64,000 nucleotides of DNA. It comes from Candidatus Hydrogenisulfobacillus filiaventi. Its GTDB lineage: Bacteria > Bacillota > Sulfobacillia > Sulfobacillales > R501. The first letter of the stretch is position 1. Each line of letters opens with the position of its first letter. The DNA is taken from positions 620,001 through 684,000 of the forward strand of contig LR778114.1 in assembly GCA_902809825.1 (NCBI GenBank), read 5' to 3'. Positions 2,026 through 14,467 of the stretch are shown here, piece after piece. The position numbers and the translations under genes were made by a program. The notes beneath the pieces were generated by a model that ran no database searches, was not told the origin of the DNA, and saw only the letters and a program-made list of their open reading frames with translations.

Positions 2026-3813
2026 ATGGCAAGCGCCTCCTTGGCCCGACGGCGGCGCCGGGCCGAGCGCTATCTATGGGCGGTTACCGGCCTGGGGGTG
2101 CTCACCCTGGCGGTCCGTGCCCCCGTCCTGGTGCCGCAGCATTGGTGGGTGACGGGCATTACCCTGCTGATGGTGGCGGGCGGCAGCCTGTGGCCCATCC
2201 CGCTGCGGCGGGGCTATGTGGATTTCACGGGGGCCGGGGTGCTGCTGGCCTATCTCCTGGGGGGACCGGCCTCCGCCTTGTGGGCGCAGCTGGGCGGCAG
2301 CGCCCTGGGGCTGCTGTACCGCCGGCGGCCGCGTCTGCAGGCGGCGGCCAACCTCGGCATCCTGGCCACGGCCCTCTCCGCGGCCACCATGGCCGCCGGC
2401 CTGGTGCGGGGGACGGCCCTGCGCGCACTCACCCTCATCCTGGTCGACCTGGTGGTCAACCACGTGCTGGTGTGCGGCTACTTCGCCGTGGGGGAGGGAC
2501 CCCTGGAGGCGGTCGACGCCTGGCGGGCCCTGCGCTGGGACCTCACCGGGTGGATGGTGGGATTGCCGGCGGCCACCGCGGGCATCCTGCTCTCCTACCC
2601 TTACCCAGTGCTGGGGGAGGCCCTGACCGGGCTCATCTTCGTGACCGCGGTCTGGTTCCTGGCTCTGTGGGTGGGGGTGCGGCGCCTGCAGCGGCAAGCG
2701 CTGGTGGTGGCCGGATCCCTGGGGCAGGTGACCCAGGTACTGGATGGGGAGGCGCTGGAGGGGGTGGAGGCGCCGATTAGCCGGACCCTGGACTTTTCCG
2801 CCTGGGCCTTCTACCTGGGCCACGAGCCCGGCCGGCCCCTGGAATTGCGGGCGGCCCGGGGGGCTTGGGATGTGGGCCTGTTGCCGCCGCCCCGCCTGGA
2901 ACCGGGGGACGGCCTGGCGGGCTGGGCGTTGGCCACGGGGCAGCCGCTGCGCATCCCCGACCTGGATCAGGAGGCGGGGGGGCTGTTCGGCCCGGTGCGG
3001 GAGCCGGGACTGGCCGGCTTCCGGGCCGCGCTGCTGGTGCCCATGGTGAGCGGTCGGACCGTCACCGGCCTGGCGGTGCTGCTGCACCACGACGCCGGGC
3101 GCTACCGCGCCACCGACCTGGAACTGTCCCGCATCGTGGGCATGCAGGTCGGAACCACCGTCAAGACCCGCCATCTGCTGCACGAGACCCGGCGCCTCTC
3201 GGTCAGCGATCCCCTGATCCCCCAGCTGTTCAATTATCGCTATTTCGTCGGCCGGCTGGAGGAGGCGGTGGCGCGCGCCGCACGCGGGGAGGGGACCGGA
3301 TTCTCTGTGCTCTTCCTGGACCTGGACGGGTTCAAATGCGTCAATGACCGCTACGGGCACCTCAAGGGGGATGCGGTGCTGCGGGAGGCGGTGGAGGTGC
3401 TGCGGGGGGAGATCCGGCAGGAGGACGTGCTGGCCCGTTACGCGGGCGATGAGTTCGTTGCCCTGCTGCCGGGGGCGGGGGCGGAAGAGGCGGCCCGCGT
3501 GCGGGACCGCATCGGCCGCCGGATTGCCGCCCATGGGTTTAGCGGTGTGCGGGAGGTCCTTAGCATCAGTGTCGGGATCGCCACCTACGGAATCGACGGC
3601 GCCGACGTGGATACGCTTTTAAACGTGGCCGATCAGCGCATGTACCGCGAGAAGCGCCGGCATAAGGAGGCGGCGTCCGATCGGGAGGGCTGTTCGGGCG
3701 AAGGCGAAAAGCGCCGGGCGGACGTATCGCATTTGACTTTAGACACGGGGAATGCTATGCTGAGCCGGTCATCGACCGGATGGGAGATGGCAGAGAAAGG
3801 GGATATGGCTTGA
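2026..3813 (+). CDS. Membrane-anchored GAF-GGDEF diguanylate cyclase
   Basis: Predicted to make cyclic di-GMP from two GTP. The 595-residue protein has a multi-pass membrane region (about residues 15-215), a GAF-like sensory domain (about 225-395) and a GGDEF domain (about 405-555). The active-site loop reads AGDEF (473-477), a conservative variant of GGDEF. An RxxD product-inhibition site (RQED, 464-467) sits exactly five residues upstream, so allosteric feedback is likely. The phosphate and Mg segment [12 protein letters not shown] is present. The last 50 or so codons run through the promoter of the next gene and look non-conserved. The membrane domain resembles that of the HD-GYP protein encoded 1.3 kb downstream. 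Confidence 0.88.
3733..3761 (+). promoter_or_regulatory. Promoter for the cold-shock gene, inside the upstream reading frame
   Basis: TTGACT (3733-3738), a 17-base spacer and TATGCT (3756-3761) match the housekeeping sigma consensus well. It lies inside the 3' end of the diguanylate cyclase gene. Transcription would start near 3768, 48 bases before the cold-shock ATG, so this gene need not depend on read-through. Confidence 0.7.
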
Positions 3814-12068: not shown

Positions 12069-12386
12069 ATGGCAGCAGGAGATATGGCGGACCACCTGCC
12101 CATCCCCCTGGAGGGTTATGCGCCGGTGTGGTGGATCGACCGCACCCCGGTCCTGATCCCGGCCACCGTGCAGCCGACCGCCTGGCAGGCCTGGCGCTGG
12201 GGGGAGACCCTGGCCCCGCTGCTGGGCTGGGCGTATGACGGCACCGTGATCGCGGTGGCCAAGCGGCTGCGGCGGGCGGAGATGACCCTGCCGGAAGGCA
12301 CGGTGTGGGCGGTCGACGCCGCCTCCATCCCCTTCCTGCGCGTGCATGTCCCCCAGACCCATCCACCGGAGGCGGAGGAGGCCTAG
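12069..12386 (+). CDS. Hypothetical protein, 105 aa
   Basis: No recognised family. The protein is soluble, rich in Trp and Pro, and has no cysteine or membrane segment. The ATG at 12069 follows GGGAGGGA (12053-12060). It has an untypically long leader of about 247 bases from the upstream gene. Its stop overlaps the convergent LysR gene by three bases. Confidence 0.6.
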   Translation: MAAGDMADHLPIPLEGYAPVWWIDRTPVLIPATVQPTAWQAWRWGETLAPLLGWAYDGTVIAVAKRLRRAEMTLPEGTVWAVDAASIPFLRVHVPQTHPPEAEEA

Positions 12387-13288
12387 CCGCCGGTGTGACG
12401 GCCGCTGTCGAGGGCAAAGGCGATGAAGGCGGCGGCCACCGCATCCCGCCGGAGTTCGGCGGGGTCGTAGATGAGGTAGAGATGCCGGGACAGGTTGGTG
12501 CCCGCTACGTGCAGGGCGCGGATCCCCTGTCCCGGCATTTCGTGCAGGGCGGCCGCAGAGGCAAAACCGGCACCGGCGCCCGAGGCCACCGCCGCCAGCA
12601 GCGCGGGATGGGAATCCACCTCCAGCACCACCCGGAAACGGCCGGCGGCGCATCCCACGCGCTCCAGGGCCTCAAAGGCGGTCTTCTGGGTGCAGGAGCC
12701 TTCCTCTCGGACCACCAGCGGCAGGCCCGCCAGGCGATCCCGAGGCAACGGGTCCGGCAGGTCCGCGAAGGGAGGCCGGTCCGGGACCAGCAGCAGGATC
12801 TCATCATCGGCCACCGCGGCGTAGCGCAGGCTGGGATCCCGCGGCCGGCAGCCGATAAAGCCCAGGGAGGCGTGGCGGGCGACCACCGCCGCCTCCACTG
12901 CCCGGGAATCCAGGGTGGCCAGATGGATGTGCACCCCCGGGTGCGCGCCCAGGAAGGCGGCGGCCAGCCGGCTCACCAACCCGGCGCTGGGCGCGGTGCT
13001 GGCGGCCAGGCGCAGCTCCCCCGTGAGCCCTTCCGGGCCGGCCAGGCTCTCGGTGAGGGCCTCCCACCGTTGCAGGGTGTCCCGCGCGAAGGCCAGCAGC
13101 TTAAGGCCGGCAGCCGTCGGCACCAGGGGCGTGGTCTGACGGTCGAGCAGCGGCCGGCCCACCTCCCGTTCCAGGCGCTGCAGGCGGCGGCTGGCGTTCG
13201 GCTGGCTCATGGCCAGGGCACGGGCGGCGCGGCTGATGCTGCCCTCCTCCGCCGTGCGCAGCAGCAGCCTGAGGTCGTCGAGGTCCAT
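12383..13288 (-). CDS. LysR-family transcriptional regulator
   Basis: A 301-residue protein with an N-terminal winged HTH (about residues 1-60; SISRAARALAMSQPNASRR) and a C-terminal periplasmic-binding-like effector domain (about 90-290). The ribosome-binding site is AGGAGGG just before the ATG. It is divergent from selD and the two promoters overlap around a dyad, so it probably represses itself and controls selD. The effector is unknown. Sulfur-metabolism LysR proteins such as CysB or CysL are a reasonable comparison but no more. Confidence 0.9.
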   Translation of the reverse strand: MDLDDLRLLLRTAEEGSISRAARALAMSQPNASRRLQRLEREVGRPLLDRQTTPLVPTAAGLKLLAFARDTLQRWEALTESLAGPEGLTGELRLAASTAPSAGLVSRLAAAFLGAHPGVHIHLATLDSRAVEAAVVARHASLGFIGCRPRDPSLRYAAVADDEILLLVPDRPPFADLPDPLPRDRLAGLPLVVREEGSCTQKTAFEALERVGCAAGRFRVVLEVDSHPALLAAVASGAGAGFASAAALHEMPGQGIRALHVAGTNLSRHLYLIYDPAELRRDAVAAAFIAFALDSGRHTGG

Positions 13289-13348: not shown

Positions 13349-13379
13349 TTAAAGGCTTGCGGGAAGGGGGGAGGAACGC

Positions 13380-14426
13380 GTGGAGGCCAAGCGCCTGACG
13401 CAGATGACGTCCAAATCCGGGTGAGGTTGTAAGCTAGGTCCGGGTGACCTAGACGAAGCCTTAACCTTCCTGATGCCGGTGCTGGGCACCGACGATCGGG
13501 TGCTGGTCGGCAACGAGACCCATGACGATGCCGGGGTATACCGCATCTCGGACGACGTGGCCCTGGTGCAGACGGTGGACTTCTTCACCCCGGTGGTGGA
13601 CGACCCCGAGCACTTCGGGCGCATTGCGGCCGCCAACTCCCTCTCCGACGTGTACGCCATGGGCGGGATTCCGCTCACCGCCCTCAATCTGCTGGCGGTG
13701 CCGGAAGGGGTGCTGCCGCCGGCTACGCTGGGGGCCATGCTGCGGGGCGGGCAGGCCATGATCACCGCGGCCGGGGCGGTATTGATCGGGGGCCACTCGA
13801 TTGACGACCCCGAGCCCAAGATGGGGTACGCGGTGACCGGCACCGTTCACCCTGACCATGTGTGGCGCAACAGCACCGCCCGCGAAGGCGACCTCCTCTA
13901 CCTCACCAAGCCGGTGGGGACCGGGGTGGTGATCAAGGCCATCAAGGACGCGGTGGCGGAACCGGCGGAGACGGAGGCGGTCATCGCCTGGATGGAGCGC
14001 CTCAACCGGGGGGCGCGCGACCTCATCGTCGACACCATCCGGGATCCGTCCGCCTGCACCGACGTCACCGGCTTCGGCCTGTTGGGGCATGCCCTGGAGA
14101 TGGCGTTGGGGTCCGGCCTGACCCTGGCCATCCGGGCGGAGGCAGTGCCTCTGGTGGAGGGCAGCGAACGGCAGGCGCGGGCGGACCGCTTCCCCGCCGG
14201 CAGCCGCGACAACCTCCGCTATGTGGAGCCGTACCTGCTGGTGGAACGGCCGGTGCCGGACTGGCGGCTCGGACTGCTGGCCGACGCCGTCACCTCGGGC
14301 GGGCTGCTGTTTACCGTGCCGGAGGGCCGGGCGCCCGAACTGGAGGCAGAGGCGGCCCGGCGCGGGCAGCCGCTCTTCCGCATCGGCCGGGTGGAACGGG
14401 GCAAAAAGCCGCTGGTGGTCCGCTGA
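13380..14426 (+). CDS. selD: Selenide, water dikinase with selenocysteine at position 15
   Basis: Makes selenophosphate, the selenium donor for selenocysteine and selenouridine. GTG 13380 follows GGGGGAGG. The frame holds one internal TGA (13422-13424) and then continues to the TGA stop at 14424-14426. Reading the internal TGA as selenocysteine gives 348 residues, the usual SelD length. It also gives the N-terminal active-site motif SGUGCKL, with Sec15 at the catalytic Cys/Sec position and Lys18 at the essential lysine. The body carries DDAGVY, TVDFFTPVVDDP and NSLSDVYAMGG. A start at ATG 13473 would remove the active site. A hairpin follows the TGA at SECIS distance. Confidence 0.95.
13434..13452 (+). 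promoter_or_regulatory. Bacterial SECIS-like hairpin of selD
   Basis: A perfect 7-bp stem, CTAGGTC (13434-13440) with GACCTAG (13446-13452), and a loop CGGGT. The loop begins 16 bases after the TGA and contains consecutive G, as expected of bacterial SECIS elements recognised by SelB. It is inside the coding sequence, as in all bacterial selenoprotein genes. Confidence 0.85.
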
Positions 14427-14432
14427 CGCCGG

Positions 14433-14467
14433 CCGGGGATCCGCAAGGGGTCCCCGGTCCGTGTTTT
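14433..14467 (+). terminator. Probable terminator after selD
   Basis: A stem CCGGGGA (14433-14439) with TCCCCGG (14451-14457), extended inward to about 10 bp, followed within 7 bases by TTTT. It may serve both selD and the convergent cyclase gene. Confidence 0.6.

Follow-up and report, generated by a model that had tools for sequence, protein, structure and literature searches.

A selenocysteine-containing selenophosphate synthetase predicted from an in-frame UGA in Candidatus Hydrogenisulfobacillus filiaventi R50

Selenophosphate synthetase (SelD) is the second most widespread selenoprotein family of prokaryotes (PMC4561486, PMC1794560). Selenocysteine (Sec) occurs in about 19% of the prokaryotic SelDs of a reference set, always at the same position (PMC4561486). 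The nearest named SelD loci to the one described here belong to Sulfobacillus, and an earlier study reported Sec-FdhA from every Sulfobacillus genome that it covered (PMC4378227). In the literature searched, no report of Sec-SelD was found for the Sulfobacillus-related order. The selD gene of R50 lies in the 64,000-nucleotide stretch of DNA that was analysed as a whole (the window; positions 620001–684000 of the single 2,570,337-bp contig), with a G+C content of 70.4% (70.55% for the genome; PMC10080006).

The selD frame consists of 348 codons and a TGA stop at 14424–14426, with a single internal TGA at codon 15 (Table 1). The translation around the internal TGA is VEAKRLTQMTSKSG-U-GCKLGPGDLDEAL, with the immediate context KSG-U-GCKLGPGDL. 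The preliminary description had proposed the open frame from the GTG at 13380, the one TGA, the motif SG-U-GCKL and the total of 348 residues, and direct reading of the frame confirms all four. TIGR00476, the SelD equivalog model, matches the frame with 357.9 bits (curated cut-off 125 bits) in an alignment that starts at residue 5 and spans the TGA; PRK00943 matches the product with 314.2 bits, above its cut-off. Identity to SelD of the order relatives is 55–67%. In an alignment with solved SelD proteins (3u0o and 2yye), U15 corresponds to the Cys of the N-terminal loop and K18 to its Lys, in agreement with the earlier assignment of a Cys/Sec site followed three residues on by Lys. The warning that a call from the downstream ATG would lose the active site also holds: the ORF from the ATG at 13473, the longest uninterrupted one in the frame, encodes 317 amino acids and lacks the active-site loop. 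Automatic gene calling could thus miss the active site of selD. A bacterial selenoprotein is recognised by an in-frame UGA that is conserved and flanked by homologous sequence, and by homologues with Cys at the UGA site, and both are found here. The gene almost certainly encodes a Sec-containing selenophosphate synthetase, in which UGA specifies Sec at the catalytic residue. The hairpin directly after the stop codon suggests that selD is a single-gene unit. A LysR-type regulator (12383–13288, minus strand) is divergent from selD; the pairing does not look conserved, because selD in a Sulfobacillus-type locus (L153) has neighbours that differ from those in R50.

Table 1. Positions of selD, its signals and the related genes (window positions unless stated otherwise)
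Feature	Position	Strand	Basis or detail
Shine-Dalgarno GGAGG, 5 nt upstream of the GTG	13370–13374	+	direct reading
selD CDS (GTG start, TGA stop), predicted selenophosphate synthetase	13380–14426	+	TIGR00476, PRK00943 and order relatives
In-frame TGA, predicted Sec, residue 15, catalytic position	13422–13424	+	relatives and alignment with solved SelD
SECIS hairpin CUAGGUC-CGGGU-GACCUAG, perfect 7-bp stem, 5-nt loop	13434–13452	+	folding, pairing in relatives, rare codons
Intrinsic-terminator-like hairpin directly 3' of the selD stop	14431–14459	+	pattern scan: 12 pairs plus T-run
FdhA-type molybdopterin oxidoreductase, second selenoprotein	genome 1784168–1785442 (L048)	-	TGA in SCNRTUHAPSVVGL
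tRNA-Sec-shaped tRNA-Cys(GCA)	genome 364062–364151 (L004 1497–1590)	-	tRNA-Sec model, 56 bits, above gathering score
selD, locus L153	about 2669–3679
Sec-shaped tRNA-Cys, locus L153	10427–10519
Sec-shaped tRNA-Cys, locus L154	2269–2359

The hairpin that follows the UGA agrees with the bacterial SECIS model of PMC13188914 in all its terms. The model has a loop of 3–9 nt, a stem of 4–16 bp, a G at loop position 1 or 2, a distance of 16–37 nt after the UGA and an MFE of at most -7.5 kcal/mol; in R50, the loop (CGGGU) closes a stem of 7 bp, has its G at position 2 and starts 16 nt after the UGA, and the isolated hairpin (13430–13465) folds with -9.8 kcal/mol. In some relatives, the loop is CAGAG, and the G rule is then satisfied only if the outer C and G pair. 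The stem draws on rare codons: both of its Leu residues are encoded by CTA, which makes up 1.3% of the Leu codons in the genes of the window, and its Gly by GGT (6.8%). From synonymous codon usage, a fully Watson–Crick stem has a probability of about 9e-6 (0 of 20,000 samples); with G-U pairs allowed, a 7-pair stem arises in 3.9% of the synonymous samples. By MFE, the 45-nt stretch does not fold more stably than its synonymous shuffles; this score is uninformative because GC-rich alternatives fold elsewhere, and pairing within the stem in question was scored in its place. Across 28 distinct sequences of the order, 91% of the stem cells are paired, compared with 20–55% for slid controls. Covariation is modest, with a two-sided change in one pair; three of the seven pairs are invariant, at bases that are also under constraint from the protein sequence. 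Sec homologues keep a mean of 6.2 of the seven pairs and Cys homologues 4.1, a difference that we regard as supporting rather than decisive because the two sets differ in taxonomy. The Rfam scan of the region gave no SECIS family match, a result that is uninformative for bacterial SECIS elements.

The Sec-decoding trait is complete in the R50 genome (selA, selB, selC and selD). SelA matches PF03841 with 480 bits, SelB has 627 amino acids with the SelB β-barrel and winged-helix domains, and the tRNA-Sec with the UCA anticodon scores 74.8 bits. The genome search proposed in the preliminary description therefore finds all three of the genes it named (selA, selB and tRNA-Sec), and the claim that the organism decodes UGA as Sec is supported at the sequence level. 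The genes are dispersed, with selD at 633 kb, selC at 722 kb, selA at 814 kb and selB at 1373 kb. The single in-frame TGA of the FdhA-type oxidoreductase is located at the known FdhA Sec site and is followed by a SECIS-like 7-bp hairpin with the loop GGUCU. SelD as the sole selenoprotein of R50 was rejected, as FdhA has this in-frame TGA. The Sec-FdhA reported for Sulfobacillus (PMC4378227), of which R50 thus has a counterpart, is a further selenoprotein of this Sec-decoding system; the enzyme differs from SelD. No internal stop was found inside the large-subunit matches of the NiFe hydrogenases in the R50 genome. The selenouridine synthase YbbB/SelU had no TIGR03167 match over the cut-off (the top match scored 21 bits across 26 positions). 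As this synthase is absent, selenophosphate in R50 probably serves Sec only.

We propose that the ribosome initiates at the GTG and that, at the UGA, SelB bound to the hairpin and carrying Sec-tRNA(UCA) would insert Sec as residue 15. Sec15 and Lys18, located in the N-terminal selenium-binding loop, would then take part in the conversion of selenide and ATP to selenophosphate, which SelA would use to make the Sec-tRNA needed for the synthesis of FdhA and of SelD as well. We infer both the presence of Sec15 in the protein and the catalytic roles of Sec15 and Lys18 from the families.

R50 contains a second tRNA of the tRNA-Sec shape. ARAGORN calls it tRNA-Cys(GCA), with a length of 94 nt; the variable arm is long, and the sequence has U73 and an encoded CCA. 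A canonical tRNA-Cys is also present in R50, at 828721. The same form was found by pattern search in at least 14 order relatives, and nine aligned copies have the anticodon, the discriminator and the T-loop in common. The body reads 7/5 in R50 and 8/5, with a regular T-stem, in Sulfobacillus-type copies. The known selC* tRNA-Cys is defined by a tRNA-Sec-like body with a GCA or UCA anticodon and U73, an 8/4 structure and an A51a bulge in the T-stem (review PMC7609411). The R50 tRNA shares the tRNA-Sec-like body, the GCA anticodon and U73, whereas the 8/4 body and the A51a bulge are absent from it and from the Sulfobacillus-type copies. It resembles selC* tRNA-Cys, is related to it, and is more unusual than selD itself. 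In two Sulfobacillus-type genomes (G010, G017), the Sec-shaped tRNA-Cys is located some 7–14 kb from selD, in a stretch that also has tRNA-Ser and tRNA-Arg genes; in R50 the distance is about 270 kb. It is conceivable, although we consider it unlikely, that the tRNA-Sec(UCA) and this tRNA-Cys(GCA, 7/5 or 8/5) act side by side in R50 and its relatives, the second being delivered by SelB or a special route to particular Cys codons and so linking Cys and Sec decoding.

The presence of a tRNA-Sec-like tRNA-Cys might be taken to mean that the UGA of selD specifies Cys or Trp, one of the standard amino acids, through this tRNA or through reassignment of the code. This is very improbable: the GCA anticodon does not pair with UGA, the stop codon of selD itself is TGA, and tRNA-Sec(UCA), selA and selB are all present. 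As a GCA anticodon cannot read UGA, the assignment of Sec to SelD is unaffected by the Sec-shaped tRNA-Cys, and for SelD itself the data suggest nothing beyond an ordinary Sec-SelD.

Within the order, 37 of the 41 genomes of relatives gave a SelD match. Since every one of the 37 has exactly one in-frame TGA, a chance TGA is excluded. All order relatives read at the base level have the TGA at the codon-15 site, and nearly all SelDs so read keep KSG*GCKLGP; homologues from Paenibacillus, Brevibacillus and Lentibacillus have TGC or TGT at the site. These Cys codons are one base away from TGA, as would be expected if a sequencing error or disabling mutation had turned a Cys-SelD gene into an apparent selenoprotein gene or a pseudogene; we give this almost no weight, as the identical TGA recurs in independently sequenced relatives, the remaining frame is intact and conserved, and the SECIS hairpin is located 3' of the TGA. 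Translation from the ATG at 13473 into a SelD-like protein with a function independent of the active-site loop has the uninterrupted ORF in its favour and is scarcely credible, given the Shine-Dalgarno sequence 5' of the GTG and upstream codons kept as protein (RLTQMTSKSG-U-GCKLGP) from the order through to Paenibacillus. Among 151 genomes of the order and class, with SelB scored as present only over the profile cut-off, TGA-SelD and SelB are both present in 98 and both absent in 41, with 12 discordant (Fisher p ~1.6e-24, uncorrected for relatedness). A UGA SelD occurs without SelB over the cut-off in nine genomes, several of which are fragmented drafts. Three order relatives (G018, G026 and G040) have no full SelD match and no SelB over the cut-off; as two of these are 96–97% complete, Sec decoding may have been lost there.

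The analysis settles how selD of R50 is to be annotated, with the start at the GTG and Sec at residue 15, and indicates that UGA is decoded as Sec in R50 and in most of its sequenced order relatives. No word starting with "selen" occurs in the R50 genome paper (PMC10080006), so that selenium would be worth adding to the growth media of this organism, which oxidises H2 and produces organics. What is known of selenoproteins in general is unchanged. The Cys-SelDs of Paenibacillus, Brevibacillus and 3u0o have the family and the neighbouring residues (GCGCK) in common with R50 SelD, but a Cys codon where R50 selD has UGA, and the hairpin of the Paenibacillus and Brevibacillus genes is weak (mean of 4.1 of 7 pairs). 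With the Sec-SelDs (the bacterial family; SPS2 in eukaryotes), R50 SelD shares the family match, the Sec site, the Lys three residues on and the SECIS element within the coding sequence, and it shows no substantive difference apart from its order, that of the Sulfobacillus relatives. As Sec-SelD is a well-known type of selenoprotein, the R50 enzyme is an ordinary member of it and not a new type.
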